Shown piece by piece: positions 34,587 to 59,570 of a DNA stretch of 64,000 nt (its first letter is position 1; each line of letters starts with the position of its first letter). Source of the DNA: Dongia deserti (GTDB taxonomy: Bacteria; Pseudomonadota; Alphaproteobacteria; Dongiales; Dongiaceae). The position numbers were made by a program, and so were the translations under genes. The stretch lies in assembly GCF_003574735.1 (NCBI RefSeq), contig NZ_QORW01000003.1, positions 310,001 to 374,000 of the forward strand, written 5' to 3'. The notes under the pieces are model-generated. The model saw only the letters and a program-made list of their open reading frames with translations, did not search any database and was not told the DNA's origin.

Positions 34587-35612
34587 CTATCGTCCATATA
34601 TCCAGTCCAACGTGTCTGCCACTATAAACAAGTCTTCGGCGTCTGGATCGAAGCGCTGGCCAGCAGCCAGTCGGACTGCCCAATCGGCCGCGGCGCGACC
34701 GCCCCAGGCATCCGGCGGGGTTGCGATTCTCTGGCACTGGGTACCGCGGTAGTGCTCAGCGATGAAGTCATAAAAAGATCCATTCACGTTGCGTAGTGCC
34801 GCACCACCCGTGGTGCCGTAGAAGGCGGCAGAGATGAGCGCATCGCGGCCCGCTTGGAGTCGCCATGAGCAGACCAGTCGTGCAACCGCACCGGTCTCCA
34901 GTTCCAGCGCAATACTGGCGTAATCTTCCACGCGCCCGTTCACCATGTTGAGCCGCTCGCCGCCGGCAAACAGCGTTGAAGAGACGCGCGAGACCTTGGG
35001 AAAATCCAAAGTCCAGAGGGCCAAGTCGACGAGATGAACGCCGAGATCCATGACACAGCCACCACCGGAGAGAGCAGCGTCATAGAACCAGGGCTTGTCA
35101 GGCCCATAGGCGTTGTGGAACACCAAATCGATGGCATAGATGCGCCCCAGTTCGCCGCGAGAGATCAGGTCGCGGATAAGGCGCATGCCCACTGTGAAGC
35201 GATAGGAGAAATCGACGGCCAGCAGCCGGTCGGCACGGCGCGCCGCATCGAGTACCGCGCGCACTTCCGTCGCGGTTCGGCCTAGCGGCTTCTGGCAAAA
35301 CACCGCCAAGCCGCGCTCGAGCGCGCGGATCGCTTGGGCGGCATGCAGAGCGGTTGGCGTCGCGATCACGACGCCGTCAAGTCCCGCCTCGAGCAACTCA
35401 TCGAACGTCCCGCCGCAGACGGCATCCGGCGCCAGCTCCGCCGCGCGGCGGATCATTTCCGGCGAAGGATCCACAATAGCGGCTATCTCTGCGGCGCCCG
35501 TCTCCAGGATCGCTTTCATCCGGTGGTGACCGATCCACCCCACGCCGAGAAACCCCAGCCGCGGCCGGTGCAGTGCTGTCTCGCTCACGCGATCGGGCGC
35601 GGTCTGCATCAT
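34587..35612 (-). CDS. Gfo/Idh/MocA-family NAD(P)-dependent oxidoreductase
   Basis: A 341-residue sugar- or inositol-type dehydrogenase. Rossmann motif LGFLGVGWIGHHRMKAI at residues 20-35, the family EKP variant FCQKPLGRTATEV near residue 125 (usually a catalytic Lys in this position), and GGCVMDLGVHLVDLALW with the His near residue 180. Substrates in the family include myo-inositol, hexoses and UDP-sugars. The ATG overlaps the stop of the zinc-type dehydrogenase gene, so the two act as a pair, reading away from the sugar cluster that contains inositol-phosphate synthase. Confidence 0.9.
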   Translation of the reverse strand: MMQTAPDRVSETALHRPRLGFLGVGWIGHHRMKAILETGAAEIAAIVDPSPEMIRRAAELAPDAVCGGTFDELLEAGLDGVVIATPTALHAAQAIRALERGLAVFCQKPLGRTATEVRAVLDAARRADRLLAVDFSYRFTVGMRLIRDLISRGELGRIYAIDLVFHNAYGPDKPWFYDAALSGGGCVMDLGVHLVDLALWTLDFPKVSRVSSTLFAGGERLNMVNGRVEDYASIALELETGAVARLVCSWRLQAGRDALISAAFYGTTGGAALRNVNGSFYDFIAEHYRGTQCQRIATPPDAWGGRAAADWAVRLAAGQRFDPDAEDLFIVADTLDWIYGR

Positions 35613-36595
35613 GGATAGGTCACCAGCGCCTTGACGAATCCGTCCGGACGTTCGCGCGTCGCATCGAGCGCCTCGTCCAGCCGCTCTAGCGGGTAGGTAT
35701 GTGTGTAAAGCACGCGAGGATCGAGCCGGCCGGCCGCGACCGCATCCACGGCTGACCGGATACCCTGGATATAGATGGCCGGATCGCGCTCATGCGCGCA
35801 GATGACATCGAGACCACGCCAGTTCCAAAGCCACATGTTCACTTGCCGTGGACCGTCCTGATGGTAGCCGGCAACGATCATGAGGCCGCGCTCACGCGTG
35901 AGCTCAGCTGCGAGATCGAGCGGCCCCTGCTTACCGACTGCTTCGATTGTACGGTCGCAGAACGTCCCGGCCGTCAGGTCCTTGACCTGCGCGATGATGC
36001 GACGATGGTCATCCATCTTTATGGTCTCAGCCGCGCCCATGGCGCGCGCGAGATCGAGCGAACTAGGCCGCCGCGAGATAGCGATCACCCGCGCTCCGGC
36101 ATTGCTTGCCAGTCTGGTGAGGAGCGCGCCCAGGAACCCGATACCGATGATCGCGACCGTATGGCCGGCCGCAACATCGCTGCGCTTGAAGATGTTGAAG
36201 GCGCAGCCGAGCGGCTCGCCCGGAAAGGGTTGGCCCGCGAGAGGACCGGGGAGTTTAACCACGCAATCCGCGTCCGCCACGTCATATTCGGCATAGCTGT
36301 GGTAAGAGAGCGCCGCGACGCGGTCCCCGACCGTGATCGCTGTGACATTGTCACCCACCGCATCGACGACACCCCAGCCCTCGTGACCGAGAGACCCCGG
36401 CGCCGTCGGGTATTGCATCCAGTCCGGGCCCGCCCAGGGAACGAGATTCGACGCACAGACGCCGCACCCCTCCAGCCGAACACGCACCTGGCGGGGACCC
36501 GGCTGCGGCTTCTGTGTCTGCTCGATGCGAATCCGGCCCGGCCCGACCAGCACGGCGGCACACATGGTCTCTGTGTCAATTGATGAGCCCCTCAT
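35609..36595 (-). CDS. Zinc-type alcohol/polyol dehydrogenase (MDR family)
   Basis: A 328-residue medium-chain dehydrogenase. Zinc-site residues Cys in LEGCGVCASN and His-Glu in GSLGHEGWGVV are present; the structural zinc lobe with four Cys appears absent. The cofactor motif reads VAIIGIGFLGALLTRLA, and the C-terminus ends VLYTHTYPLERLDEALDA as in sorbitol/threonine-type members. ATG at 36595 (GAGAG upstream) is one of three in-frame choices (36607, 36595, 36565). Paired with the downstream Gfo/Idh/MocA gene by a 4-bp overlap; both may act on sugars or inositols of the adjacent cluster. Confidence 0.87.
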   Translation of the reverse strand: MRGSSIDTETMCAAVLVGPGRIRIEQTQKPQPGPRQVRVRLEGCGVCASNLVPWAGPDWMQYPTAPGSLGHEGWGVVDAVGDNVTAITVGDRVAALSYHSYAEYDVADADCVVKLPGPLAGQPFPGEPLGCAFNIFKRSDVAAGHTVAIIGIGFLGALLTRLASNAGARVIAISRRPSSLDLARAMGAAETIKMDDHRRIIAQVKDLTAGTFCDRTIEAVGKQGPLDLAAELTRERGLMIVAGYHQDGPRQVNMWLWNWRGLDVICAHERDPAIYIQGIRSAVDAVAAGRLDPRVLYTHTYPLERLDEALDATRERPDGFVKALVTYP

Positions 36596-36813
36596 CGTCT
36601 CTCGCATGACGGTCGAATGCCCTGTCCGCTAACCCTTGTTCCTGCAGCACGTTCCAACGTGAACGGCCAGATGCAGTTCCGCCGGCGCGCAGGCACGCGG
36701 GATTTTCCTCGTGCCGCGTGAACGTTCGGCCTGCATTCCTGTTCACAACGCATATTCCAGGTTGACGCTCCCACGCGACGTGCTGGCGCCAGAGGCATTT
36801 TGGAGAGATGACG

Positions 36814-37248
36814 ATGAAGATCAGCGATTGCATGAGTTCGGACGTGCGGATCGCCTCACCTGCCTGGTCGATCCGCGACGCCGCCCGTGCGATGAGGGAA
36901 ATCGATTCCGGATTCCTTCCGGTCGGAGAGAACGACCGCCTTGTCGGTGCGGTCACCGATCGGGATATCGTGATCCGCGCCGTCGCCGAGGACAAGGGGC
37001 TGGAGACCAAAGTGCGCGACGTGATGTCAGATGAGATCATCTACTGCTACGATGACGAGGATCTCGACGCAGTCGCCACCAGAATGTCGGATCGCAAGAT
37101 CCGGCGCCTGCCGGTCCTCAATCACGACAAGCGGCTGGTCGGCGTGGTCTCGCTTGGCGACCTCTCGCAAAGCCCGGAGGATGATGGAAGGCGCAGTGCC
37201 GCCGCACTCGGAAGTATATCAACGCCCGGCGGCGAGCACGTTCAGTAG
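36814..37248 (+). CDS. Tandem CBS-domain protein
   Basis: A 144-residue protein with two CBS motifs: SIRDAARAMREIDSGFLPVG with VGAVTDRDIVIRAV, and DAVATRMSDRKIRRLPVLNH with VGVVSLGDLSQ. Pairs of CBS motifs (a Bateman module) bind adenine nucleotides and act as energy sensors. No catalytic domain is attached. The ATG at 36814 has better spacing to GGAG than the ATG two codons earlier. It reads toward the inositol-phosphate synthase gene with a small DUF3008 gene between, possibly a stress operon. Confidence 0.9.
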   Translation: MKISDCMSSDVRIASPAWSIRDAARAMREIDSGFLPVGENDRLVGAVTDRDIVIRAVAEDKGLETKVRDVMSDEIIYCYDDEDLDAVATRMSDRKIRRLPVLNHDKRLVGVVSLGDLSQSPEDDGRRSAAALGSISTPGGEHVQ

Positions 37249-37256
37249 AAACTCCG

Positions 37257-37445
37257 ATGCCGGCGAAATCCAAAAAGCAGCAAATGGCAGCGGGCGCCGC
37301 GCTCGCCGCCAAGCGTGGGAAGCGAAATAAAAGTTCCCTGAAGGGTGCCTCCCGCTCCATGGTCGAATCCATGAGCGAGAAGGAGTTGCGCGACATTGCT
37401 TCCACCAAGCGCAAAGGAAAGCCGAAGCGCGCTTCACGCTCGTAA
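37257..37445 (+). CDS. DUF3008-family small basic protein
   Basis: A 62-residue, Lys/Arg-rich, probably disordered protein: MPAKSKKQQMAAGAALAAKR then LKGASRSMVESMSEKELRDI and a basic tail. The pattern is that of the DUF3008 family, small conserved proteins of unknown function found in alphaproteobacteria, often near stress genes. It starts 8 bp after the CBS gene, so it is likely co-transcribed with it. Confidence 0.85.
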   Translation: MPAKSKKQQMAAGAALAAKRGKRNKSSLKGASRSMVESMSEKELRDIASTKRKGKPKRASRS

Positions 37446-37540
37446 CGTGCAGCGCGACTTCTCGGCCACCCGGGGAGGTTGCGCAATGGGACAATTAGAG
37501 GGGCGGATCAGTTGCCTGCTCGATTAAGCAAGGACCCAAC

Positions 37541-38617
37541 ATGACTAGGCGCAAGCTCCGGGTAGCGATCGTCGGCGTCGGAAATTGCGCCTCATCCTTG
37601 ATACAGGGCATTACCTATTATCGCGACGCACGCACCGGCGATGCCGTGCCGGGCTTGATGCATGTCGATCTGGGCGGATACCGGGTCGGCGATATCGAGA
37701 TCGTCGCAGCCTTTGACATCAATGCCGAGAAGGTGGGGAAGGATCTGGCGACGGCCATCTTCGAGCGGCCGAACAATACATTCCAGTTTACCCAGGTGTC
37801 GCCGCTGGGCGTCACGGTCCAGCGCGGCCCCACGCTGGACGGACTTGGTCGTTATCTTAACGACGTGGTGCCGGAATCGGACAAGCCAGCAGTCGACGTC
37901 GCGAAGGTCCTGCGACGCTCGGAGGCGGAGATCGTGGTCTGCTACCTGCCCGTTGGATCGCAGCGTGCTGCCGAATGGTATGCCGAGCAGGCACTGGCGG
38001 CGAACTGCGCTCTGGTCAACTGCATTCCGGTCTTCATCGCTTCGGACGAGGGCTGGAGCCGGCGCTTTGAGGAGCGTCGCTTGCCTGTCATCGGTGATGA
38101 CATCAAGAGTCAGGTCGGCGCGACGATTACACACCGGGTGCTGACAAACCTCTTCCGCGAGCGCGGCGTGCGCCTCGACCGCACCTATCAGCTGAATTTC
38201 GGCGGCAATACCGACTTCCAGAACATGCTGGAGCGTGACCGGCTCGAGTCCAAGAAGATCTCCAAGACGCGCTCGGTGGAGAGCCAACTCGACGTGCCGC
38301 TGTCGCCGGACTGCATCCACGTCGGGCCCAGCGACTATGTGCCGTGGCTGACCGATCGCAAGTGGTGCTATATCCGGATGGAGGGCACCACGTTTGGCAA
38401 TGTGCCGCTGAATTGCGAGCTCAAGCTGGAGGTGTGGGATTCGCCCAACTCGGCGGGCATCGTGATCGATGCCGTTCGCTGCGCGAAGTTGGCGCTCGAT
38501 CGCGGCATCGGCGGCGCACTGATCGGCCCATCCAGCTATTTCATGAAATCGCCGCCGCAGCAATTCACCGATTCAGAGGCAAGGCGGCTGACGATTCAGT
38601 TCATCGATCAGGGCTGA
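37541..38617 (+). CDS. ino1: Inositol-3-phosphate synthase (actinobacterial/archaeal type)
   Basis: Converts glucose 6-phosphate to 1L-myo-inositol 1-phosphate using NAD+. The 358-residue length matches the short prokaryotic Ino1 rather than the roughly 530-residue eukaryotic form. Visible: Rossmann motif [16 protein letters not shown] at residues 8-23, [22 protein letters not shown], the active-site segment [18 protein letters not shown] and [12 protein letters not shown], then [19 protein letters not shown]. Ino1 is widespread in actinobacteria and archaea and sporadic in proteobacteria, which suggests transfer of the cluster. A glycosyltransferase gene follows 21 bp later. Confidence 0.93.
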
Positions 38618-38638
38618 GCGGCGCCAACGGACATTGAC

Positions 38639-39742
38639 ATGCTGATCGTCGTCTTCGGTCTTACCATCAGTTCTTCCTGGGGCAATGGTCACGCGACCTT
38701 GTGGCGCGGCCTGTGCGGTGCGCTGGCGCGGCGTGGACACCACGTCGTCTTCTTCGAGCGAGACGTCCCCTACTACGCCCTTAATCGCGATCTCTGGGAG
38801 ATTCCCGATGGAGAGCTGGTGCTCTATCGCGATTGGGCCGAAGTGACTCCCACCGCCGAAGAGCGTCTCGCCGCCGCCGATGTCGCGATCGTCACCTCCT
38901 ACTGCCCTGATGGCGTGGAAGCGGCGGAACTGGTGCTCTCCTCCCCGGCAGAGATGCGCGTCTTCTACGATCTCGATACGCCCGTCACGCTCGCCAACCT
39001 GAGTGCGGGCAAGGAAGTCCCCTATATCGGGCCGCACGGGCTGTCGGGGTTCGACCTGGTACTGAGCTATACCGGCGGTTCCGCGTTGGATGCGCTCAGG
39101 ACGCAACTCGGCGCGAGGCGGGTCGCACCGCTCTACGGAAGCGTCGACCCGGCCGCGCATCGGCGTGTTGCCCCTCAGCCGCAATACGCTGCCGACCTTT
39201 CCTATCTCGGCACCTATGCGGCCGATCGGCAGGCGGCGCTCCGCGAACTGCTGATCGAGCCGGCGCAGCACAGGCCGGGGCAACGCTTCCTGATCGGCGG
39301 GGCGCAGTATCCGCCGGAGTTCCCGTGGCTCGGCAACATCTTCTTCGTCCGCCACCTGCCGCCTTCCGAACATCCGGCCTTCTACAGCTCCTCGCGCCTC
39401 ACCCTCAACATCACACGGGCGGCCATGGCTCGGATGGGCTGGTGCCCGTCGGGCCGGTTGTTCGAGGCGGCAGCATGCGGCGTTCCCATTCTGTCCGATT
39501 CCTGGCCGGGGCTGGAGGAGTTCTTCACGCCCGGCTCGGAAATCCTGGCGGCCGAGACGCGGGAGGATGCCATTGCCGCCCTGGACCTCTCCGTCGCGGA
39601 GCTGGCGCGGATGGGGCGCGCGGCACGGGAGCGAACGGAAGCGCAGCATACGTCCGATCAGCGCGTGCGCGAGCTCGAGCGCCTGCTGGCCGATCGTGCG
39701 CCGCCGGCGCCAGGAATCGACATCCATTCGGCAGGAGCTTGA
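38639..39742 (+). CDS. CgeB-like glycosyltransferase (paralogue 1)
   Basis: A 367-residue cytoplasmic GT-B-type protein of the CgeB/spore-maturation class (DUF3880-like N-terminus and a GT1-type C-terminal domain). Features: FGLTISSSWGNGHATLWRGL at the start, VVFFERDVPYYA, LDTPVTLANLSAG, LSYTGGSALDAL, and the C-terminal SGRLFEAAACGVPILSDSWP with GLEEFF, the nucleotide-sugar-binding region. It is the closest relative in the window of the protein at 49172-50278 (shared ITSSWGNGHAT, IDTPVTL and GTYSADRQ-type blocks). Substrates unknown. The next gene begins 1 bp after its stop. Confidence 0.88.
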   Translation: MLIVVFGLTISSSWGNGHATLWRGLCGALARRGHHVVFFERDVPYYALNRDLWEIPDGELVLYRDWAEVTPTAEERLAAADVAIVTSYCPDGVEAAELVLSSPAEMRVFYDLDTPVTLANLSAGKEVPYIGPHGLSGFDLVLSYTGGSALDALRTQLGARRVAPLYGSVDPAAHRRVAPQPQYAADLSYLGTYAADRQAALRELLIEPAQHRPGQRFLIGGAQYPPEFPWLGNIFFVRHLPPSEHPAFYSSSRLTLNITRAAMARMGWCPSGRLFEAAACGVPILSDSWPGLEEFFTPGSEILAAETREDAIAALDLSVAELARMGRAARERTEAQHTSDQRVRELERLLADRAPPAPGIDIHSAGA

Positions 39743-39743
39743 A

Positions 39744-40493
39744 ATGTGGGGAATAGTGCCGGCCGCGGGCAGCGGCACACGCATTCAGCCTCTCGCCTTT
39801 TCCAAGGAGCTGCTGCCGGTCGGCAGCAGATTCGACGGGACCACGGAGCGGCCCCGCGCAGTCAGCGAATATCTGATCGAGCGCATGATCGCAGGAGGCG
39901 CGGACAAGATATGTTTCGTCATCGGGCCGGGGAAATCCGACATCTTGCACCATTTCGGCGACCGATATGGCGATGCCGCCATCGCTTATGTCGTGCAGCC
40001 GCAGCCCCGCGGGCTGTGCGATGCGATCTTTCGCACGACGCCGCTCATCCATCCCGACGAATCGATGACGGTCGGGCTGCCTGACACGATCTGGTTTCCG
40101 GCGGACGGGCTACGCGCATTGCCGGACGACCGCCTCTCCTTTCTCCTCTTCCCTGTGGAGCGCCCGGAAGCGTTCGATGCGGTCGTGCTTGATGAGCAGG
40201 ATCGCATCCGCGAGATCCAGGTGAAGCGGCCCGACGCGCAGTCGAATTGGATTTGGGGTGCGTTCAAGATGCCGGGCGCCGTGCTGCATGCACTCAATCG
40301 CCTGTGGCTCGAGCGGGTGCCGCGGGACGAATATGTCGGAACGTTGATCAACGCCTATCTGAGTCAAGGAGGAGACGCGGTCGGCGTGCGCGCCGGGCAA
40401 TCCTATGTCGATGTCGGGACCCTGCATGGATATCGCGAGGCGGTCGCGCTGCTGGCGCGTGGCGATAGTCAGACGCAACGCATGCGCGCCTGA
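39744..40493 (+). CDS. Sugar-phosphate nucleotidyltransferase
   Basis: A 249-residue enzyme of the NTP_transferase family (glucose-1-phosphate thymidylyl/uridylyltransferase type). Signature GIVPAAGSGTRIQPLAFSKE with the catalytic Arg and Lys, LPVGS, VVQPQPRGLCDAIF (base-binding Q-rich segment), VGLPDTIWFP (metal-binding Asp). It would activate a sugar phosphate to an NDP-sugar for the glycosyltransferases. Whether it uses UTP, TTP or CTP cannot be read. AGGAG precedes the ATG. Confidence 0.88.
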   Translation: MWGIVPAAGSGTRIQPLAFSKELLPVGSRFDGTTERPRAVSEYLIERMIAGGADKICFVIGPGKSDILHHFGDRYGDAAIAYVVQPQPRGLCDAIFRTTPLIHPDESMTVGLPDTIWFPADGLRALPDDRLSFLLFPVERPEAFDAVVLDEQDRIREIQVKRPDAQSNWIWGAFKMPGAVLHALNRLWLERVPRDEYVGTLINAYLSQGGDAVGVRAGQSYVDVGTLHGYREAVALLARGDSQTQRMRA

Positions 40494-40504
40494 GGACGAT
40501 CGAG

Positions 40505-41287
40505 ATGATGAGCAACCTGGACACCATCGAGCGGATGTCCCACGAGCAGGTCCGGCAGCGCGTCGCAGAACTCGGCCCGTGGTTCCATAATATCGACCTC
40601 AACGGCGTAAGAACGGCGCCCGAGCACTTCCTCGGCGACTACCCGGCGGTCAAGTGGCGGCGCTTCGCCGACCGCATTCCGGCCGATCTCGGAGGAAAGA
40701 GCGTCCTGGATATAGGCTGCAACGCCGGGTTCTATTCGATCGAAATGAAGCGCCGTGGGGCCGCCCGCGTCCTGGGCATCGATTTCGACGAGCGGTATTT
40801 AGCCCAGGCCCGTCTGGCCACAGACGTATGCGGAGTGGATGTCGAGTTCCGTAACCTCTCGGTCTACGACGTGGGCGCCCTCGGCGAACGGTTCGACATC
40901 GTGCTTTTCTTGGGCGTGCTCTATCACTTGCGCCATCCGCTGCTCGCCCTCGATCTCATCCATGAGCATGTCGCCGGCGACCTCCTTGTCCTGCAATCGA
41001 TGCAGCGCGGGAGCGAAGCCATCGATCCGCTGCAGGACGACTACGACTTCTGGGAAGCCGACATGTTTGAAAGCTCGGGCTTTCCAAGGATGCATTTCGT
41101 CGAGCACAAGTACGCGGACGACTGGACCAACTGGTGGATTCCCAATCACGCCTGCATAGAGGCGATGGTACGCAGCGCCGGCTTCGACATCCTGGAGCAT
41201 CCTGAACAGGAGGTATTCATCTGTCGGCGCGGCGCGCCCCCCTACGGGGCTGGCAGCGTCTATCCTGCGCGTGGAGACAGCCGATGA
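40505..41287 (+). CDS. SAM-dependent methyltransferase associated with glycosyltransferase clusters
   Basis: A 260-residue class I methyltransferase with SAM motif SVLDIGCNAGFYSIEMKRRG, then VLGIDFDERYL, and FDIVLFLGVLYHLRHPLLAL. The start region GPWFHNIDLNGVRTAP and the tail with WWIPNHACIEAMVRSAGFD resemble the TIGR04290 (Rta_06860-type) group, as best I recall, which also shares CmoB/tRNA-mo5U-like features. A sugar or lipid acceptor is likely from context but not shown. Its TGA overlaps the start of the glycosidase gene. Confidence 0.87.
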   Translation: MMSNLDTIERMSHEQVRQRVAELGPWFHNIDLNGVRTAPEHFLGDYPAVKWRRFADRIPADLGGKSVLDIGCNAGFYSIEMKRRGAARVLGIDFDERYLAQARLATDVCGVDVEFRNLSVYDVGALGERFDIVLFLGVLYHLRHPLLALDLIHEHVAGDLLVLQSMQRGSEAIDPLQDDYDFWEADMFESSGFPRMHFVEHKYADDWTNWWIPNHACIEAMVRSAGFDILEHPEQEVFICRRGAPPYGAGSVYPARGDSR

Positions 41288-42216
41288 TCGAAGCGGTCAT
41301 GATCTGGAACGAACCTAACAACAAGTCGCATTGGGACCCCGAAATCGATCCGGACTGGAGGCTCTACGGCGAAATGGCTGTGACGGCTGCCGACGCGATC
41401 GCGGCTGAGGCACCGAGTTTGCCCAAGGTGCTTGGCGGCATTTCGCCGATCGATCCGAACTTCATCCGCAACATGGCGGGAAAAGGTGTTCTGGATCATG
41501 TCGATGTCGTGGCGCTCCACGGTTTCCCGCTCGACTGGAACCTCTGGCCCATCCACGAATGGCCGGACCGGATCAGGGATGTTGAAGCCGTCACCAGGCT
41601 GCCTATCTGGATTACCGAAGTTGGCGTTTCGACCTTCGGGGCGGAGCAGGTGCAGGATTGGGGATTGCAACGCACCGCCGAGCTACTCATCAGGCGCGTG
41701 CCGCGGATCCACTGGTACAGCCTGTATGACTTGCCGCGCGCTTGGACGGCGACGACGCGCCACAAGGAAGCCGAGGGTTCGTCCTATTACAGGCACTTCT
41801 ACATGGGTCTGTTGCGCGAGGATGGCTCGCCCAAGATCGCGGCCGAGCAATTCGCGGCTTACGGTGCGGAGATGGGAATCTGCCAGTGGTTCAATTTCGA
41901 CGATCACCGGCTCTATGACGCGGTGCAGTGGCTGCGCCGGCTCGGCGTGCGGCACGTGCGTACCGGCCTCAGCTGGGCCGACAGCTTCAGGCCTAACGCA
42001 CTGGCCTGGTTCGACCGGCAGATGGCAGCATTGGACGAGTTCGACGTGACGCTCACTTTCTGCTTCACGCCGGAACATCGCGGCATTGCCCCGCACCACA
42101 CCAGTGCTCCGCTGATCAAGGAGGAGTTTGCGGATTTCTGCGCGGCTATGACGCGCCGCTATGTGGGCAATGGACGCGCTGATCGTCTCCGGGCCATTGA
42201 AGCCGCCGCGGGATAA
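41284..42216 (+). CDS. Clan GH-A glycoside hydrolase-like protein with swapped halves (beta-xylosidase-like)
   Basis: A 310-residue TIM-barrel hydrolase-like protein. The acid/base candidate Glu10 is in AVMIWNEPNN and the nucleophile candidate Glu112 in IWITEVGVSTFG, about 100 residues apart as in clan GH-A. From residue 197 comes MGICQWFNFDDHRLYDAVQW, then LGVRHVRTGLSWADSFRP and FDVTLTFCFTPEHRGIAPHH, which look like the first strands of such a barrel (normally N-terminal to the NEP motif). The order is thus a circular permutation, perhaps a family trait. No signal peptide, so it would act in the cytoplasm, possibly as a transglycosidase or trimming enzyme. ATGA overlap with the methyltransferase gene. 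Confidence 0.78.
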   Translation: MIEAVMIWNEPNNKSHWDPEIDPDWRLYGEMAVTAADAIAAEAPSLPKVLGGISPIDPNFIRNMAGKGVLDHVDVVALHGFPLDWNLWPIHEWPDRIRDVEAVTRLPIWITEVGVSTFGAEQVQDWGLQRTAELLIRRVPRIHWYSLYDLPRAWTATTRHKEAEGSSYYRHFYMGLLREDGSPKIAAEQFAAYGAEMGICQWFNFDDHRLYDAVQWLRRLGVRHVRTGLSWADSFRPNALAWFDRQMAALDEFDVTLTFCFTPEHRGIAPHHTSAPLIKEEFADFCAAMTRRYVGNGRADRLRAIEAAAG

Positions 42217-42243
42217 GAACCGGCGGCCTCTCCTGCGCCGCGC

Positions 42244-43245
42244 TCAGGCGGGCACGGCCGCCTGCCCGTTAGCGCGCTTGGCCGCGGAGACGCGACGCTC
42301 GCGTCGTCCATCGGAGAGCCGCCGTTCGAAATAAGCTATGGTGTACCCAAGTCCCTCCGTCAGCGGAACGGCCGGACACCATTTGAGCAGTTGCTGCGCC
42401 TTCTCAATGGCCGGCCGGCGTTGCCGTGGATCGTCTGTCGGCAGCTTCTTGTGCACGATCCTCGACTTGGAACCGGTTATGTCGATCACCAACCTAGCCA
42501 GCGCGAGAACGGTGCATTCCGTGGGATTGCCGAGATTGATTGGCCCCGTTGCACGTCGGTTATCCATCAGCCGACGCAATCCCTCGATCAAATCGGTCAC
42601 ATAGCAAAACGAGCGCGTCTGCAGGCCGCTGCCATAGATCGTGATCGGCTTGCCCTGCAAAGCCTGGACGATGAAGTTAGATACCACTCTTCCGTCCTTC
42701 GGGTGCATGCGCGGGCCGTAGGTGTTGAAAATCCGCGCGACGGCAATGTTCAATCCATGGTGGCGCTTGTAGTCGAACATAATGGTCTCGGCGCAGCGCT
42801 TGCCTTCATCGTAACAGGATCGCACCCCGATGGGGTTGACATGGCCCCAATATTCCTCCGGCTGTGGGTGGACCTCCGGATCGCCGTAGATTTCGCTCGT
42901 CGAGGCCTGCAGGAGCCTCGCTTTAGCCGCCGTCGCGAGCTTGGCCATGTTCAGGGCGCCGAGGACGCTCGTCTTCACGGTTCCGAGGGGGTCAGCCTGA
43001 TAGTGCGCCGGTGAAGCGGGGCACGCGAGATTATAGATCTGATCGACCTTCAGTTGAAACGGCAAAGCGACATCGTGGCGCACAACCGTGAACCGGCGAT
43101 TGTCGAGAAGCGACTCTAGGTTCACAGGACTGCCGGTGGAGAAGTCATCCAGGCAGATAACGTCGCCCCCATCGGCCAACAACGCCTCGCACAGATGCGA
43201 TCCTAAGAAACCGGCACCCCCCGTCACCAAAATCCGTGTAGCCAT
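42244..43245 (-). CDS. UDP-glucuronate decarboxylase-like SDR (UDP-xylose synthase type)
   Basis: A 333-residue extended SDR. NAD-binding [18 protein letters not shown], catalytic triad elements [12 protein letters not shown] (Thr/Ser) and [11 protein letters not shown] (YxxxK), and the UXS-type [20 protein letters not shown] and [19 protein letters not shown] with the Arg that holds glucuronate. These features strongly resemble UDP-xylose synthase, giving UDP-xylose from UDP-glucuronate. ATG at 43245 with a GAGG site is used. It is the only minus-strand gene inside the cluster, divergent from the epimerase operon. Confidence 0.9.
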
Positions 43246-43486
43246 GCAATACCTCGACTGACTCAGGCTGATTTTCAACTCCGCGACTGGCTGCCCGATT
43301 ACAAGTGAATACGCGGACGGCAGCGACGGTTCCACGTGCTACTTACGCCTACATCGCCATGCATGGAATGTGCAGAACTGTTGCAACGCGGTGCGTCCTT
43401 TGAGGTTTACCGTCAGTTACGCGCTGACGTCTCATCACCGCGATGTCAAACGATAACGCGATGCCGAATGGGCAAGTGTTGGTCCG

Positions 43487-43530
43487 TGCAGTGCTTTGGG
43501 ATGATTGGTGCAGTGCTTTGGGATGATTGG
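43487..43530 (+). repeat. Perfect 22-bp tandem duplication upstream of the epimerase gene
   Basis: TGCAGTGCTTTGGGATGATT plus GG occurs twice head to tail (43487-43508 and 43509-43530), 13 bp before the epimerase start, in the leader between divergent genes. The second copy also supplies GATTGGAG, the likely ribosome site. A recent slippage duplication in a 5' leader, or a pair of binding sites. Confidence 0.8.
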
Positions 43531-43542
43531 AGCGACAGTGGC

Positions 43543-44658
43543 ATGCGCGAGCGAGTGCTGATAACGGGCGGCGCAGGATTTATCGGGTCGCATCTCTGCG
43601 ATGCATTGCTGGCCGCCGGATACGACGTCCGCCTGTACGACAACTTGAATCCGCAAGTGCACGGGAACGGCGCATGGCCATCCTATCTGACAAAGCATGC
43701 AGAGCTGCAATGCGGCGACATGCGCGATGCAGCGCGGCTGGGGCGTGCCCTGGAGGGAATCGACGATGTCGTCCACCTCGCCGCGTCTGTCGGCGTGGGC
43801 CAGAGCATGTATGAAATCGCCGACTACGTCGGTGTAAACGATTGTGGCACTGCAAACCTCCTGCAGCTTCTGAGCAAGAAGCCGGCACGCAAGCTCGTCG
43901 TTGCGTCCTCCATGAGCGTCTATGGAGAGGGTCGATATCGGACGGCGCCCGGCGCGATCGTGGACAATGCCGTGCGCTCGGATGGCGCCATTCGCGCCGG
44001 CGCATGGGATCCTGTCGACGAGCGGGGCGAAGCGTTGGTGCCGATCCCCACACCGGAGGAAAAGGTGCCGGATCTTGCCTCGGTTTACGCCCTCACCAAG
44101 TTCAGCCAGGAGCGGATGTGCCTGCTGGTCGGCAAGGCCTATGGGATGAGCACCGTCGCACTGCGTTTCTTCAACGTCTATGGAACGCGGCAGGCGCTGT
44201 CCAATCCCTACACGGGCGTGCTGGCCATCTTCGCGAGTCGTCTGATGAACGGCAATCCGCCTATGATTTTTGAGGACGGTGGTCAGCTTCGCGACTTCGT
44301 TCATGTCCGTGACGTCGCCCAGGCTTGTCGTTCGGCCATTGAGGCGGCTCCGACAGCGGACGGCGTGTACAATGTCGGCACGGGCCGCGGCGTTTCGATC
44401 GCGGAGCTAGCCGACAGGATGCGGACATTGCTCGGTCGGCCGGACCTAAAACCGCAATTGACCGGCCGCTATCGCATCGGCGATGTGCGCCACTGCTTCG
44501 CCGAGATCAAGAAAGCGCGCCACGCTCTGGGATTCGACCCGAAGGTCGGGCTCAATGAAGGCATGGCGGAGCTCGTGGAATGGGTGCGCTGCGAAGCGCC
44601 GCGCGATCAGGTCGATTTCGCGACCAGGGAGCTGTCTCGCCGAGGATTGGTCGCATGA
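43543..44658 (+). CDS. NAD-dependent sugar epimerase/dehydratase (extended SDR)
   Basis: A 371-residue SDR. VLITGGAGFIGSHLCDALLA binds NAD; VVASSMSVYGEG and VYALTKFSQER (YxxxK) supply the catalytic residues; ALRFFNVYGTRQALSNPYTG and GQLRDFVHVRDVAQACRSAI are substrate-binding segments of UDP-sugar 4-epimerase-like enzymes. An insert between SVYGEG and the YxxxK carries GAWDPVDERGEALVPIPTPE, as in a group of nucleoside-diphosphate-sugar epimerases. The frame is open 69 codons upstream, but ATG 43543 is where SDR similarity begins. ATGA overlap with the next gene. Confidence 0.9.
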   Translation: MRERVLITGGAGFIGSHLCDALLAAGYDVRLYDNLNPQVHGNGAWPSYLTKHAELQCGDMRDAARLGRALEGIDDVVHLAASVGVGQSMYEIADYVGVNDCGTANLLQLLSKKPARKLVVASSMSVYGEGRYRTAPGAIVDNAVRSDGAIRAGAWDPVDERGEALVPIPTPEEKVPDLASVYALTKFSQERMCLLVGKAYGMSTVALRFFNVYGTRQALSNPYTGVLAIFASRLMNGNPPMIFEDGGQLRDFVHVRDVAQACRSAIEAAPTADGVYNVGTGRGVSIAELADRMRTLLGRPDLKPQLTGRYRIGDVRHCFAEIKKARHALGFDPKVGLNEGMAELVEWVRCEAPRDQVDFATRELSRRGLVA

Positions 44659-45788
44659 CGGTGGACGGCTTGCAGCCTTGGAGGCTGCGTCAAGTAGACG
44701 GGCTCGAACCGGTGCGGCACCGAGACAGCGCGGATGATGCGTTGACGCTAATCACAGGCGGGGCTGGCTTCATCGGCACCAATCTTGCAGACCGGATCGC
44801 GCGCGAAGGCGGCCGTGTTCTGATCTACGACAATCTCAGCCGAGCTGGAGTCGAGCGGAACCTCAAGTGGCTGAAGCAGCGCCATGGCGATCGCATTTCG
44901 GTGGACGTGGCGGACATCCGGGACAATGAGCGGATCGAAGCGGCCGTCGCACAGGCGGTTCGCGTCTTTCACATGGCCGCGCAAGTGGCGGTCACCACTA
45001 GCCTCGCTGATCCGCTGACCGATTTCCAGATCAACGCGGCTGGGACCTTGTCCCTGCTTGAAGCGCTACGCAAACGGCACAAGCCGCCGCCGCTCGTCTT
45101 CGCCTCCACCAACAAGCTGTACGGTGAATGCGTGGCCCGTGACCAGCTGTCCGAAGAGGCGACACGGTATCGGCCCCGCCGGCTCGGTCTGCGGCGTGGC
45201 ATCGATGAGCTTTGCCCAATCCAGCTCGTCAGCCCATACGGTTGCTCCAAGGGAGCGGCGGATCAGTACGTGCTGGACTATGCCCGTGCTTTCGGCATAC
45301 CGGCCGCTGTGATGCGCATGAGCTGCATCTACGGGCCGCGTCAGTTCGGCACGACCGACCAGGGTTGGGTCGCACATTTTGTCGGCGCCTGCCTGCAAGG
45401 CGAGACCATCACCGTTTATGGCGATGGCAAGCAGGTGCGAGACATACTGTTCGTCGAAGACGCAGTGAATGCCTATCTGCTCGTGCAATCCCATATGCCG
45501 CAGATTAGCGGCCAAGTATTCAATCTCGGCGGTGGTCCCCGCAATGCTGTTAGCCTGCTCGAACTGCTCGCGTTGCTCGAGGGGCTGACAAAGACGAAGC
45601 CGAAAGTACGATTCGACAACTGGCGTCACGGGGATCAGCTCTACTACGTGTCGGATACCACACATCTGCGGCGCGCAACCGGCTGGCAGCCGACCGTCAG
45701 CTATACGCGCGGCATTGCGCAGCTCCATCATTGGCTTTCGGGCTTCCTCGGCACCCACACACTGCACCGCGAGCGGGTTCCCGCATGA
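44655..45788 (+). CDS. NAD-dependent epimerase, CDP-paratose 2-epimerase-like
   Basis: A 377-residue extended SDR with a non-conserved N-terminal leader of about 28 residues, then LTLITGGAGFIGTNLADRIA, VFHMAAQVAVTTSLADPLTD, VFASTNKLYGE and SPYGCSKGAADQYVLDYARA (YxxxK). The NKLYG motif and the long stretch before the active-site Tyr (ELCPIQLVSPYGCS) are characteristic of CDP-paratose/tyvelose 2-epimerase relatives. It is overlapped by ATGA on both sides, so it is tightly coupled to the preceding epimerase and the following GT4 gene. Confidence 0.88.
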   Translation: MTVDGLQPWRLRQVDGLEPVRHRDSADDALTLITGGAGFIGTNLADRIAREGGRVLIYDNLSRAGVERNLKWLKQRHGDRISVDVADIRDNERIEAAVAQAVRVFHMAAQVAVTTSLADPLTDFQINAAGTLSLLEALRKRHKPPPLVFASTNKLYGECVARDQLSEEATRYRPRRLGLRRGIDELCPIQLVSPYGCSKGAADQYVLDYARAFGIPAAVMRMSCIYGPRQFGTTDQGWVAHFVGACLQGETITVYGDGKQVRDILFVEDAVNAYLLVQSHMPQISGQVFNLGGGPRNAVSLLELLALLEGLTKTKPKVRFDNWRHGDQLYYVSDTTHLRRATGWQPTVSYTRGIAQLHHWLSGFLGTHTLHRERVPA

Positions 45789-46945
45789 GCCCACTTTGCC
45801 GCGAACGCAAGCGCAAAAGTGAAGCGCCACGACGCATCCTGATGACGGCCGATGCCGTGGGTGGCGTATGGCAATATTGTCTGGAGCTGGCTGCCGGACT
45901 TTGCCGCGCCGGCTCGGAAGTCTGGATGGCGGTGATGGGACCGGCACCAAGCCAGGGACAGCTGCAGAGCACGCACATCGCTGGCCTCAGAATCCTTCAT
46001 GGCGATTTCCGGCTGGAGTGGATGGTGGACGCAGAGGCGGATTTGGGGCGCGCTGGCGACTGGCTCCTGACGCTGGCCGACGCGCTGAGGCCCGACATCG
46101 TCCACCTCAATGGCTATGCGCATGCGGCGCTGCCCTGGCGCCGGCCGGTCGTCGTGGTCGCGCATTCCTGCGTGATCACCTGGTGGCGGGCGGTGCACCG
46201 ATGCGAAGCTCCCCAAGAGTGGGACAGATATCGCAACTTCGTCGCACGCGGGCTTGAGGCTGCGGACCTTGTAATCGCGCCGACCCTAGCGTTCTTGCGG
46301 GCGTTGCGCGCGACCTACCGGTTCGACACACCGAGCTGCGCGATCTGGAACGGTCGCAGCCGTACCCCTGAGAGCACAGGGGCGAAGCAACGGGTGGTCA
46401 TGACCGCCGGCCGACTATGGGATGCCGCGAAGAACGTCGCCATATTGACAAGAGCGGCCGAGCACGTGCCATACCCGATCTGGGTCGCCGGCGCCGACAT
46501 GACGCAGGATTGCCCGGCTTCTGTCCTGCCGCTTGGTCGCCTCGATGAATGCGAGATGCGGCAACGATTGGCCGACGCGATGGTCTTTGCCATCCCCGCG
46601 CGCTACGAGCCGTTCGGCCTCACTGCCGTGGAAGCCGCCCAGGCGCGCTGCGCGCTGGTGCTGGGCGACATCGATACCCAGCGCGAGCTATGGGATGGGG
46701 CTGCCATCTTCGTTCCGCCGGATGATTCCGCGGCCCTGGCGCGCCATCTGAATCGCCTGTTGGAGCAGCCGCAACTGGCTGCAGCGCTGGGCGCCTTGGC
46801 CCATCGCCGAGCAAGCCGCTTCACGGCGGAGCGTATGGTGCACCGCTATCTGCACGCTTATGGCATGGTCAACAAGTCGGCCCAGCGCCGCACTTCAGGC
46901 GCTGAAACGAGCGATCTGCCACGCGCCCACCTTCACACCCTCTAG
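45785..46945 (+). CDS. Glycosyltransferase family 4-like protein
   Basis: A 386-residue GT-B retaining glycosyltransferase. ILMTADAVGGVWQYCLELAA is the N-terminal acceptor-domain start, HLNGYAHAALPW and VVVAHSCVITWW follow; the C-terminal domain has VVMTAGRLWDAAKN and the EX7E region PARYEPFGLTAVEAAQAR. No signal or membrane helix, so it acts in the cytoplasm or at the inner membrane face. The start overlaps the upstream epimerase stop. Confidence 0.9.
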   Translation: MSPLCRERKRKSEAPRRILMTADAVGGVWQYCLELAAGLCRAGSEVWMAVMGPAPSQGQLQSTHIAGLRILHGDFRLEWMVDAEADLGRAGDWLLTLADALRPDIVHLNGYAHAALPWRRPVVVVAHSCVITWWRAVHRCEAPQEWDRYRNFVARGLEAADLVIAPTLAFLRALRATYRFDTPSCAIWNGRSRTPESTGAKQRVVMTAGRLWDAAKNVAILTRAAEHVPYPIWVAGADMTQDCPASVLPLGRLDECEMRQRLADAMVFAIPARYEPFGLTAVEAAQARCALVLGDIDTQRELWDGAAIFVPPDDSAALARHLNRLLEQPQLAAALGALAHRRASRFTAERMVHRYLHAYGMVNKSAQRRTSGAETSDLPRAHLHTL

Positions 46946-46955
46946 GGAGCCGAGT

Positions 46956-48080
46956 GTGCGCTTTGTCCTCTTCTATCACTCTCTGATCTCCGACTGGAAT
47001 CATGGCAACGCCCACTTCCTGCGCGGCGTTGTTCGCGAATTGCTGGCTGCTGGACACGATGTAGCGGTCTATGAGCCGGACGGCGGATGGAGCCTGCAGA
47101 ACCTACTGCGCGAACACGGGCCCCACGCCGCGGAAGCCTTCCGTCGCGCCTTTCCCCAGCTCCGTTCGACCGTCTACGATCTGGAGACGCTCGACCTGGA
47201 TCGCGCGTTGGAAGGCGCGGATGTCGTCATCGCCCATGAGTGGAACCCGCCGGAGCTGATCGCACGCCTCAACCGAAAGCGCGCGAGCGGCGCAAAGTTC
47301 CGCCTGCTGTTCCATGACACGCATCATCGTGCCGTCACCAAGTCGCGGGAGATGGCGGCCTATGATCTCTCGGCCTTTGACGGCGTCCTCGCCTTCGGTG
47401 AAGCCGTTCGCCAGCTCTATGTCCGAAACGGGTGGTCGGGACAAGCCTGGACGTGGCACGAGGCGGCCGATACCGCCTTATTCAAACCCATTCGCGCGAC
47501 GCGCCCAGTCGATGACTTGGTCTGGATCGGCAATTGGGGTGATCGCGAGCGTAGCGCCGAACTGCTTGAGTTCCTGGTCGAGCCGTCGCGCGCGCTCGGT
47601 TTGCGTACGTCGATTTATGGCGTGCGCTATCCGCAGACGGCCAAACGTCTTCTGGCGAGTGCGGGCATCGCTTACCACGGCTGGTTGCCGAACTATCGCG
47701 TGCCGGCGGTGTTCTCGCGGTTTCAAGTCACCGTCCACGTGCCTCGCCGACCCTACGTCAAGCGGCTGCCCGGGATCCCGACGATCCGAATGTTCGAGGC
47801 CTTGGCATGCGCCATTCCACTCATCTGCGCGCCGTGGGACGATGCAGAGAGCCTGTTCGGGTCGATGGACTTCTTGCGTGCCCGGAACGGCGACGAGATG
47901 AGGACACAGCTTCAGCGCGTGCTCGCAGACCGCGATTTGAGGCGGGAACTCGCGCGCAACGGCTTGCGTACTATCGAGACGGGACACACCTGTGCCCATC
48001 GCGTTCGTGAACTCCTCTCGATCTGCGAGTCGATCGGTGCTGTGCCGGAGGCGCGCCGGCCCTCCGTGGTTGCTGCCTAG
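46956..48080 (+). CDS. CgeB-like glycosyltransferase (paralogue 2)
   Basis: A 374-residue member of the CgeB group starting with GTG (VRFVLFYHSLISDWNHGNAH) behind GGGAG. Features: DVVIAHEWNPPELIARLN, FHDTHHRAVTK, LVWIGNWGDRERSAELLEF and the C-terminal TIRMFEALACAIPLICAPWD. It is the most divergent of the four cluster paralogues (WNHGNAH replaces WGNGHAT). It lies 10 bp after the GT4 gene and 9 bp before the next paralogue. Confidence 0.87.
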   Translation: MRFVLFYHSLISDWNHGNAHFLRGVVRELLAAGHDVAVYEPDGGWSLQNLLREHGPHAAEAFRRAFPQLRSTVYDLETLDLDRALEGADVVIAHEWNPPELIARLNRKRASGAKFRLLFHDTHHRAVTKSREMAAYDLSAFDGVLAFGEAVRQLYVRNGWSGQAWTWHEAADTALFKPIRATRPVDDLVWIGNWGDRERSAELLEFLVEPSRALGLRTSIYGVRYPQTAKRLLASAGIAYHGWLPNYRVPAVFSRFQVTVHVPRRPYVKRLPGIPTIRMFEALACAIPLICAPWDDAESLFGSMDFLRARNGDEMRTQLQRVLADRDLRRELARNGLRTIETGHTCAHRVRELLSICESIGAVPEARRPSVVAA

Positions 48081-48089
48081 GAGTTCGTG

Positions 48090-49175
48090 ATGCACATCGC
48101 CTTCTTTGGATCCAGCCTTGTCTCATCCTACTGGAACGGGGCGGCGACGTATTATCGCGGCCTGTTGCGAGCCCTGGCGGATCGGGGCCACCGGATCACG
48201 TTCTTCGAGCCAGATGCCTTCGATCGCCAGGCGCATCGAGACATGCCGGATCCATCCTGGTGCAAGGTCGAGGTGTATCAGCCGAACACGCTGGCGTGCG
48301 AGCGGATGCTTCGCCAGGCGCGTGTGGCCGACCTTGTGGTGAAGGCGAGCGGCGTCGGCGTGCTCGACGAATTCCTGGAGCAAGCCGTGCTGGAGCTGCA
48401 GCGTCCGAACCGACTGGTGGCATTCTGCGACGTCGATGCACCCGCAACCCTGGAGCGCGTGACCAACGATCCGGCAGATCCATTCCGATCGCTAATTCCA
48501 AGATACGATGCCATCTTCACCTATGGCGGCGGCGATCCGGTGGTCCGCGCCTATCGCGCGATGGGAGCGCGGCTGTGCCGTCCGATCTACAACGCACTCG
48601 ATCCGGCAACCCACTTCCCTGTTGCTCCCGATCCGAAGTTCGCCGCCGATCTCAGCTTCCTCGGCAATCGCCTGCCAGACCGCGAGCAGCGCGTGCGCGA
48701 CTTTTTCCTGCAGCCTGCCGCGCATCTTCCAAACCTGACTTTCCTGCTCGGCGGTGCCGGATGGCCCGGCAGCCACCTGCCGGCCAACGTCCGCACCATC
48801 GGTCATGTCGGCACTGGTGATCACAACGCGTTCAATTGCTCGGCAAAGGCGGTGCTGAATATCGCGCGCGACAGTATGGCGCGCTCCGGCTTCTCGCCGG
48901 CGACGCGCGTGTTCGAGGCGGCCGGCGCCGGCGCCTGCACGATCACCGACGCCTGGGAAGGAATCGAGGAGTTCTTTATTCCGGACGAGGAGATTCTCGT
49001 TGCGCCGGATGGCGATGCTGTTTGCTCGATCCTTGAGGGTCTCGACGCCGAGCGTGCCGCCCGGATTGGCGCAGCGGCCCGCCGCGCAGCACTTCACCGC
49101 CACACTTATGCCATCCGGGCAGTGGCGGTGGAGGAGACCCTCGAGGGCCAGAAGATTGGATCGGTGGCGGGATGA
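48090..49175 (+). CDS. CgeB-like glycosyltransferase (paralogue 3)
   Basis: A 361-residue CgeB-type protein: MHIAFFGSSLVSSYWNGAAT at the start (WNGAAT in place of WGNGHAT), AFCDVDAPATLERV, FTYGGGDPVVRAY, LSFLGNRLPDREQRV and the C-terminal ATRVFEAAGAGACTITDAWE with GIEEFF. ATG at 48090 is used because AGGAG lies 6 bases upstream; an in-frame GTG abuts it. Its TGA overlaps the next gene. Confidence 0.88.
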   Translation: MHIAFFGSSLVSSYWNGAATYYRGLLRALADRGHRITFFEPDAFDRQAHRDMPDPSWCKVEVYQPNTLACERMLRQARVADLVVKASGVGVLDEFLEQAVLELQRPNRLVAFCDVDAPATLERVTNDPADPFRSLIPRYDAIFTYGGGDPVVRAYRAMGARLCRPIYNALDPATHFPVAPDPKFAADLSFLGNRLPDREQRVRDFFLQPAAHLPNLTFLLGGAGWPGSHLPANVRTIGHVGTGDHNAFNCSAKAVLNIARDSMARSGFSPATRVFEAAGAGACTITDAWEGIEEFFIPDEEILVAPDGDAVCSILEGLDAERAARIGAAARRAALHRHTYAIRAVAVEETLEGQKIGSVAG

Positions 49176-50278
49176 AGATTGTCATTCTGGGACTTTCCAT
49201 CACCTCCTCCTGGGGCAACGGGCATGCCACGACCTATCGTGCGCTGGTCCGTGCGCTGCATCATCGAGGACACGAGGTCCAGTTCCTCGAACGAAACCTC
49301 TCCTGGTACGCTGACAATCGTGACATGCCGCGGCCGGATTTCTGCACCGTCAAGCTCTACGCAAGCGTGCGCGATTTGATTCGCCGATTCTCCGGTGCGG
49401 TTGCAGGCGCGGATCTGGTGATGGTGGGATCTTTCGTGCCGGACGGAATTGCCGTTGGCGAATGGGCTACCGAGACCGCCACCGGGACGACCGCGTTCTA
49501 CGACATCGATACGCCCGTCACGCTCACGAAGCTTCAAGCGGGAAGCTGCGACTATCTGTCACCCGATCTGGTGCAGCGCTTCGATCTCTATCTATCCTTC
49601 ACCGGTGGCCCGGTGCTCGATCGTCTCGAGCGCGCTTTCTTCGCGCGACGAGCGCGTGCGCTCTATTGTTCGGTCGATCCGGCCCTCTATAGGCCCGCGC
49701 GATCCACGCCGCGCTGGGAGCTGGGCTACATGGGCACCTATTCGGCGGACCGGCAGCCCAAGCTGGAGTCCCTGCTGTTCGACACTGCACAGCGTCTGCG
49801 TGACCGCCGTTTCGTGGTAGCGGGCGCGCAATATCCATGCGAGATCGCATGGCCGACGAACGTCAAGCATATCGAGCACCTGGCGCCTGATCGCCATGCC
49901 GCATTCTACAACGCACAGCGCTTCACCCTGAACATTACGCGAGCCGACATGACGGAGCTAGGCTGGTCGCCTAGCGTGCGCCTGTTCGAAGCGGCGGCCT
50001 GCGGCACGCCGATCATTTCTGATCTCTGGGGCGGCATCGAAAGCTTCTTCCGTCCGGATTCGGAGATCTTCCTGGCACGATCCGCGGATGACGTGGAGCG
50101 CATCCTGCGATGCACCGGCGATGCAGAGCGCCGGAAGACGGCCGCCGCGGCACGAAAGCGGGTGCTGAATGCTCATACCGCGCTGCATCGCGCTATCCTG
50201 CTGGAGCGATATGTCCACGAAGTGACGACCAGCAGTCGGGCCAGATCCCGGCCGCGGCAGGCTGCCAGCGTGGCCTGA
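49172..50278 (+). CDS. CgeB-like glycosyltransferase (paralogue 4)
   Basis: A 368-residue CgeB-type protein and the last gene of the glycosyl cluster. MKIVILGLSITSSWGNGHAT, FYDIDTPVTLTKLQAGSCDY, LSFTGGPVLDRLE, GYMGTYSADRQPKLESLL and SVRLFEAAACGTPIISDLWG parallel the first paralogue (38639-39742) segment by segment, so those two are a duplicated pair separated by about 9 kb. It overlaps the upstream gene by 4 bp. Confidence 0.89.
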   Translation: MKIVILGLSITSSWGNGHATTYRALVRALHHRGHEVQFLERNLSWYADNRDMPRPDFCTVKLYASVRDLIRRFSGAVAGADLVMVGSFVPDGIAVGEWATETATGTTAFYDIDTPVTLTKLQAGSCDYLSPDLVQRFDLYLSFTGGPVLDRLERAFFARRARALYCSVDPALYRPARSTPRWELGYMGTYSADRQPKLESLLFDTAQRLRDRRFVVAGAQYPCEIAWPTNVKHIEHLAPDRHAAFYNAQRFTLNITRADMTELGWSPSVRLFEAAACGTPIISDLWGGIESFFRPDSEIFLARSADDVERILRCTGDAERRKTAAAARKRVLNAHTALHRAILLERYVHEVTTSSRARSRPRQAASVA

Positions 50279-52917: not shown

Positions 52918-53096
52918 GGTCACCTCCTCAATGAATTCGGATGCCCATTAACAACAGCCGGCAATCTGCGGCGTTCCGAATGAACCTTTTTGCGGCTTTC
53001 CCGTTCACAGAGGAGCGGTTCGGCGCATACCGGGAACCCTGGCCGTCCCGCAACAACGCGGGGGATTCAGCAGAGGGCTCAAGTGGGGAGATCTCG

Positions 53097-59560: not shown

Positions 59561-59570
59561 GGCATTCGGC

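Follow-up and report, generated by a model that had tools for sequence, protein, structure and literature searches.

Cytoplasmic methylated oligosaccharides are the products of the mycobacterial methylmannose and methylglucose polysaccharide clusters, in which glycosyltransferases and methyltransferases are accompanied by a cluster-encoded glycosidase. In the Sinorhizobium uxs1-uxe-aps cluster for an arabinose polysaccharide, a UDP-xylose synthase and a 4-epimerase feed the glycosyltransferases. A gene block of Dongia deserti (positions 34587-50278 of the 64,000-nt stretch of DNA analysed here, called the window) recalls both. The likeness to the mycobacterial clusters is one of gene functions; unlike the Sinorhizobium cluster, the block lacks any recognisable gene for a polysaccharide synthase or for export, and it does have an inositol-3-phosphate synthase (Ino1), a methyltransferase and CgeB genes. 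As far as the literature searched shows, it represents a real, conserved and apparently undescribed pathway, an oligosaccharide biosynthesis cluster with stress-type promoters in many carriers and with a permuted glycosidase. The initial annotation had listed Ino1, a nucleotidyltransferase, a UDP-glucuronate decarboxylase (UXS), short-chain dehydrogenase/reductase (SDR) epimerases, a GT4 and four CgeB-like glycosyltransferases, a methyltransferase, a glycoside hydrolase (GH)-like protein and dehydrogenases; all were located close to where it had placed them, with Pfam or NCBIfam support for the window proteins.

The mycothiol pathway (Ino1, MshA and a phosphatase) may resemble the cluster in its Ino1. 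The window protein (37541-38617, plus strand; PF01658) appears to be of the mycobacterial or mycothiol type: its best and only model is TIGR03450 (529 bits, below the equivalog cut-off of 638), it matches the mycobacterial enzyme 1gr0 with an E-value of 1.7e-140, and it is the sole inositol-phosphate synthase copy in the 6.13-Mb genome. In relatives of the cluster, Ino1 lies beside a phosphatase and glycosyltransferases, which recalls the glycosylation of inositol-3-phosphate followed by dephosphorylation. The cluster differs from the mycothiol pathway in its GT4 glycosyltransferase, which scores 26 bits against the MshA cut-off of 462, and in its extra glycosyltransferases and sugar-nucleotide enzymes. 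MshB, MshC and MshD gave no NCBIfam match among the cluster proteins, to which this search was limited.

The S-adenosylmethionine (SAM) methyltransferase of the window (40505-41287, plus strand) is a full member of TIGR04290 (meth_Rta_06860), with 383 bits against a cut-off of 300. A radical SAM protein of TIGR04295 (B12_rSAM_oligo) is an optional partner, sharing the cluster in 29 of the 87 loci compared below; it had no tblastn match in the window. Both NCBI families are placeholders, hypothetical equivalogs without function, and the "oligo" in the name of the second suggests that its curators also saw an oligosaccharide context. The main text of the Ramlibacter genome paper makes no mention of inositol or of the Rta_06 genes, and the literature search found no description of the cluster or its product, in line with the earlier claim that the product is undescribed.

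Conservation and the two architectures

When 84,980 species genomes were searched with the methyltransferase, 289 relatives were found and the best 80 retained; with seven annotated loci from plasmids (196 plasmid records matched the methyltransferase) they make up the 87 loci. The set is biased to close relatives of the window methyltransferase, and its gene counts are lower limits since most loci end 10 kb from that gene. Besides the methyltransferase (87), these loci contain GH (81), Ino1 (77), a histidine phosphatase (76), CgeB3 (72), CgeB2 (71), CgeB4 (69), the nucleotidyltransferase and GT4 (57 each), CgeB1 (55) and UXS (42). Portions of the same gene set surround the methyltransferase in all 80 genome loci fetched, and the order GT4-CgeB2-CgeB3-CgeB4-UXS is fixed in most loci having these genes. 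CgeB1 and the nucleotidyltransferase behave as a pair, occurring together in 54 loci, with the nucleotidyltransferase alone in four and CgeB1 alone in one. Clustering is thus far beyond chance, the core being stable and the flanks variable. The conserved partners GT4, CgeB2-4, UXS, SDR1, SDR2 and the GH domain are all present in the window cluster; the histidine phosphatase, which adjoins ino1 in most relatives, has no counterpart in the window.

Versions of the cluster that can be recognised as such therefore occur well beyond this genome, in 80 genome loci and many plasmids and in many genera, and the possibility that these genes co-occur nowhere else is ruled out. Many soil and plant bacteria share the cluster; among its carriers are Mesorhizobium, Bradyrhizobium, Azospirillum, Microvirga, Roseomonas, Phenylobacterium, Labrys, Rhizobium and Sinorhizobium, together with three Verrucomicrobia-type metagenome bins and one Thermoleophilia bin, in which binning errors are possible. 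The cluster is patchily distributed: of 240 genomes sampled evenly across the class, 11 had the methyltransferase above the cut-off. The pathway is conserved in Bradyrhizobium, Mesorhizobium, Sinorhizobium, Rhizobium, Azospirillum, Microvirga and Roseomonas, many of which have stress-type promoters, and this suggests that inoculant and symbiotic bacteria make a stress metabolite not yet described.

Two architectures were distinguished. In type A, an unpermuted GH domain precedes SDR2; this was found in R. etli, Tistrella and five sampled genomes of the class (L120, L121, L122, L125 and L126). The annotated R. etli and Tistrella proteins are GH-SDR2 fusions, and that on R. etli p42b (L118:6467-8506) is annotated only as an epimerase. 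Most type A loci carry the TIGR04295 protein. Neither Ino1 nor a free permuted GH occurs in the type A stretches fetched, and the five class genomes contain no Ino1 genome-wide. In type B, to which the window belongs, SDR2 is unfused, the permuted GH is a free protein and Ino1 is seldom missing: Ino1 and the free GH occur together in 78 loci, the free GH without Ino1 in the fetched stretch in seven, and the free GH together with the fusion in none. At least five genomes that have a related core lack Ino1 altogether. Ino1 therefore stands outside the core, and inositol is an addition to a glycosylation core that is itself conserved. The inositol glycoside envisaged in the initial annotation is accordingly possible for the Ino1-bearing type B and does not apply to type A. 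The fusion ties the putative GH activity to SDR2 and its predicted product.

Three further observations concern particular loci. One locus (L124, genome G162) combines the permuted GH with the methyltransferase, CgeB1 and the nucleotidyltransferase in a genome without any Ino1, and is an exception to the Ino1 link. A protein of 582-584 amino acids lies beside the cluster in Sinorhizobium, Mesorhizobium and Azospirillum (L116:2086-3834, L113:15784-17538); the Sinorhizobium copy had no Pfam or NCBIfam match. A phosphopentomutase gene lies within the Bradyrhizobium cluster copies (L112:15715-16920) and in 10 loci overall, which hints at a pentose-1-phosphate branch.

The glycosidase-like barrel

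PslG and other clan GH-A enzymes share with the GH-like protein of the window (41284-42216, plus strand) the barrel, an acid/base-type glutamate on strand 4 (NEP) and a nucleophile-type glutamate on strand 7. The window protein differs in being permuted, in lacking a signal peptide and in its place within a biosynthetic cluster. In BLASTP comparison with the fused R. etli domain, its residues 2-196 match residues 118-310 (E 9e-23) and residues 197-293 match residues 16-114 (E 2e-8), i.e. in swapped order. Profile comparison with an unpermuted relative gave the same picture (2-188 to 117-301 and 193-297 to 11-117, with probabilities of 99.8% and 97.7%), and a tandem-doubled unpermuted profile produced one continuous match of 286 columns, with a score of 279 versus 199. 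Automatic detection found the swapped order in 63 of 88 loci; "full" unpermuted calls for L046 and L047 were rejected, their alignments extending into upstream sequence. Of 36 aligned copies, nearly all start at strand 4 with M-I-E-A-x-x-[IL]-WNEPNNKSHW; E10 and E112 do not vary among the 36. The structure prediction is confident (pLDDT 85, pTM 0.86) and contains eight strands. The strand order of the protein is 4-5-6-7-8-1-2-3 in place of the standard clan GH-A order. A Foldseek search gave no good full-length match; stretches of 160-190 residues of GH2 and GH10 barrels aligned at about 3.5-5 Å with a probability of 1.0, as expected since the barrel is permuted.

The protein is thus a clan GH-A (GH39-like) barrel that has undergone circular permutation in nature, and a putative glycosidase, with E10 and E112 as its catalytic-type glutamates. 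The best sequence relative in the PDB is the GH39 protein PslG (E 0.015); because solved PslG has the usual strand order, the free permuted form is probably the derived one. A truncated or wrongly started gene was rejected as an explanation, the "missing" strands being conserved at the C-terminus and the start overlapping the methyltransferase stop in the window and in the annotated copies L112-L114. Since the protein starts directly with a barrel strand, it has no signal peptide. We know of no natural permutant in clan GH-A, a statement of novelty that goes with a thin literature check. With its unpermuted counterpart in sister clusters, the permuted GH is a clean natural case for the survival of an enzyme through circular permutation.

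Stress-type promoters

The plus-strand genes of the block are closely spaced: neighbours lie 1 to 21 bp apart or overlap by ATGA. They form two runs, Ino1-CgeB1-nucleotidyltransferase-methyltransferase-GH (37541-42216) and SDR1-SDR2-GT4-CgeB2-CgeB3-CgeB4 (43543-50278), between which UXS lies on the minus strand, divergent from SDR1. This antiparallel gene implies at least three or four transcription units, and a single operon is rejected. Of the earlier proposal that near-touching plus-strand genes form one pathway, the spacing and, through the synteny conserved across many genera, the single pathway have held.

Upstream regions of 300 bp were searched for the motif GGAAC-N16/17-YGTT, whose form fits the published EcfG consensus (PMC6599016), with expectations from first-order Markov resampling of each region. 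Of 78 loci with an ino1 upstream region, 26 had the motif there, as had 12 of 45 for SDR1 (0.2 expected in each case); it was absent upstream of the internal genes for the methyltransferase, GT4 and GH. A scrambled "swap" control pattern gave 0/78 for ino1 and 0/45 for SDR1 and a reversed one 4/78 and 1/45, while the reverse-complement pattern scored 5-7 because two operons share a facing upstream region in Microvirga and others. The loci with the motif spread over at least 10 genera and are related to each other, so that the counts are not independent. Both runs bear the motif in nine loci. Several copies of the cluster adjoin stress-type genes, namely those for TreZ, DUF3606, DUF1003, topoisomerase IB, Ku, LigD and a nutrient-deprivation-induced protein; in Sphingomonas, the genes for TreZ, Ku and topoisomerase IB depend on EcfG (PMC6599016).

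The family resembles EcfG regulons in the sites at operon heads in part of its loci, in its TreZ, Ku and topoisomerase neighbours and in the presence of NepR, found in the Dongia genome with PF18557 above the cut-off. It differs in that the window cluster has one exact site only and in that the literature search found no regulon paper naming the cluster. This exact motif, GGAAC-N16-CGTT (36656-36680, minus strand), lies solely before the dehydrogenase operon, 73 bp upstream of the match to the Zn-type dehydrogenase. In the 6.1 Mb of the Dongia genome there are 99 CGTT-type sites, a count that does not exceed that of the reversed control (138), and a single EcfG-type site in this genome is therefore weak evidence by itself. 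Predicted stress control is supported by the motif for the family and weakly for the window copy.

Two more EcfG-type motifs lie downstream of the block on the plus strand (55301-55325 and 61894-61918), and a phospholipase D-like gene (55591) follows the first of them at about 290 bp; they suggest a wider stress-gene region. A protein like TreZ (malto-oligosyltrehalose trehalohydrolase; 59370-61478, plus strand) is 37% identical to the TreZ adjoining the Bradyrhizobium copy L112.

Proposed pathway and gene layout

Our tentative reading, with a probability of roughly 0.4, is a cytoplasmic pathway, stress-linked through EcfG/PhyR/NepR in many carriers, in which an O-methylated oligosaccharide would be assembled on inositol as the head. 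Ino1 would convert glucose-6-phosphate to inositol-3-phosphate, and a phosphatase, supplied here from elsewhere, would remove the phosphate before or after the first glycosylation. UXS (42244-43245, minus strand; 4gll/2b69, E about 1e-114; the longest open reading frame begins at 43335, the start at 43245 being judged more likely) would form UDP-xylose. SDR1 (43543-44658, plus strand; PF01370), an NDP-sugar 4-epimerase-like protein with 158 bits to the galE model, under the cut-off, and 6wjb/6wj9 and UDP-glucose 4-epimerases as top solved relatives, would epimerise an NDP-sugar at C4. SDR2 (44655-45788, plus strand) would act at C2; it is of the CDP-tyvelose/paratose epimerase type (9rl0, E 2e-81; 1orr, E 2e-75) and shares 53% identity with the SDR part of the R. 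etli fusion. The NDP-sugar nucleotidyltransferase (39744-40493, plus strand; PF00483; solved relatives of RmlA type) may provide the donor for CgeB1 (38639-39742, plus strand; PF13524, E 6e-39), a GT-B glycosyltransferase 45% identical to CgeB4. Sequential addition of sugars would fall to GT4 (45785-46945; PF13439/PF13692), CgeB2 (46950-48080, start codon uncertain; PF13524, E 7e-33), CgeB3 (48087-49175; PF13524, E 2e-35) and CgeB4 (49172-50278; PF13524, E 1e-37; no solved relative at E 0.01), all on the plus strand. Methylation would be the step of the TIGR04290 enzyme, the permuted barrel may trim, recycle or transglycosylate the product, and the dehydrogenase pair may modify either the cyclitol or a sugar.

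The families support inositol-3-phosphate, UDP-xylose, C4- and C2-epimerised NDP-sugars and one further NDP-sugar as probable intermediates, and the product is best read as a methylated oligosaccharide that contains pentose and, in type B, has an inositol head. With five glycosyltransferases and one methyltransferase in the cluster, it would have up to about five sugars. The gene families, the synteny, the invariant catalytic-type glutamates, the permutation and the enrichment of the promoter motif among relatives are observed; we infer the substrates, the order of the steps, the solubility and nature of the product and its role as a desiccation or osmotic protectant. A broader proposal, which we regard as doubtful, is that the general stress response of Alphaproteobacteria has a widespread branch, so far undescribed, whose product is a new class of methylated, inositol-headed oligosaccharide protectant, with the permuted barrel as a trimming or transglycosylating biosynthetic enzyme that replaced the unpermuted GH-SDR fusion upon the gain of inositol synthesis.

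Several points weigh against the stress-linked cytoplasmic pathway. The ino1 and SDR1 sites are degenerate in the window (the sister genome L032 keeps them), and the Azospirillum and Roseomonas copies have no exact EcfG motif near the cluster. Class-wide co-occurrence of Ino1 and TIGR04290 is moderate (4 genomes versus 1.1 expected, p 0.018) because related clusters without Ino1 exist. Five glycosyltransferases suggest a longer, possibly lipid-linked glycan, many solute pathways needing one or two, and both product and enzyme activities are read from sequence.

The main rival is a glycolipid glycan, e.g. of phosphatidylinositol or hopanoid type, whose head would be assembled at the inner membrane face and flipped by a transporter encoded elsewhere. 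Five glycosyltransferases and UXS suit such a head, and the models that rank next to TIGR04295 for the radical SAM partner include B12 radical SAM lipid enzymes (HpnR, ladderane-type). However, the cluster contains no phosphatidylinositol synthase, acyltransferase or lipid-carrier gene, and its glycosyltransferases match soluble GT-B families. An MsbA/ChvA-like ATP-binding cassette exporter encoded downstream (52941-54923, plus strand) would fit a glycolipid but is unmatched beside the 98 other loci and was rejected as the cluster exporter. Since no lipid carrier, flippase, polymerase or conserved exporter accompanies the cluster, a cytoplasmic product is favoured and the glycolipid is held to be unlikely. 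The absence of Wzx, Wzy and a lipid carrier transferase, reported initially for the block, holds for the window cluster; the small or soluble glycoconjugate preferred then over an exopolysaccharide agrees with the lack of a conserved exporter, its being soluble rather than lipid-linked remaining conjectural.

That Ino1 and its neighbours serve a separate purpose, supplying myo-inositol for use as a solute or precursor, and only adjoin a glycosylation core to which they are unrelated, is quite unlikely. Type A has the core without Ino1, and several loci have the Ino1 run diverging from the core run or in reverse orientation to it; yet the methyltransferase and GH, core genes in type A, share a run with Ino1 in type B, and the 78 loci with Ino1 and GH and the nine with motifs on both runs argue for a joint function. 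Still less probable is a surface or capsular polysaccharide with polymerase and export genes elsewhere: UXS and SDR genes are common in exopolysaccharide loci and those of R. etli pC lie about 11 kb from the cluster, but no Wzx, Wzy or phosphoglycosyltransferase gene recurs in the annotated loci, the core is stable while the flanks vary, and the glycosidase-like protein has no signal peptide. Glycosylation of a protein or of a cyst- or spore-like coat, by analogy with Bacillus CgeB, would account for four PF13524 proteins and for the several carriers whose names or strain origins point to arid soils, but is very improbable, as the cluster has no conserved coat protein or adhesin gene and Bacillus-type sporulation is absent from Alphaproteobacteria.

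The remaining genes of the block lie upstream of ino1. A Gfo/Idh/MocA-type dehydrogenase (34587-35612, minus strand; PF01408/PF22725; top solved relative 6jw6, E 4e-26), an optional partner found in 13 of the 87 loci, forms an operon with a Zn-type medium-chain dehydrogenase (35609-36607, minus strand; PF00107/PF08240). The latter has the scyllo-inosose 3-dehydrogenase IolM as its top NCBIfam match (97 bits, not reaching the cut-off of 450) and the ketose reductase 1e3j as a solved relative. Two genes overlooked in the initial annotation lie between this pair and ino1. One encodes a CBS-domain protein (36808-37248, plus strand; PF00571 in two stretches), with matches solely in the closest relative L032 and in L120, the other a 62-residue basic protein (37257-37445, plus strand; DUF3008-like by eye) with a copy in L032 at 84% identity. 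Beyond the dehydrogenases lies a trypsin-like serine protease gene (31143-32204, minus strand), of which no relative was found near other cluster copies. A DUF892 ferritin-like gene (50302-50889, plus strand) directly follows CgeB4 and also occurs in the fetched stretches of L032, L051, L057 and L122.

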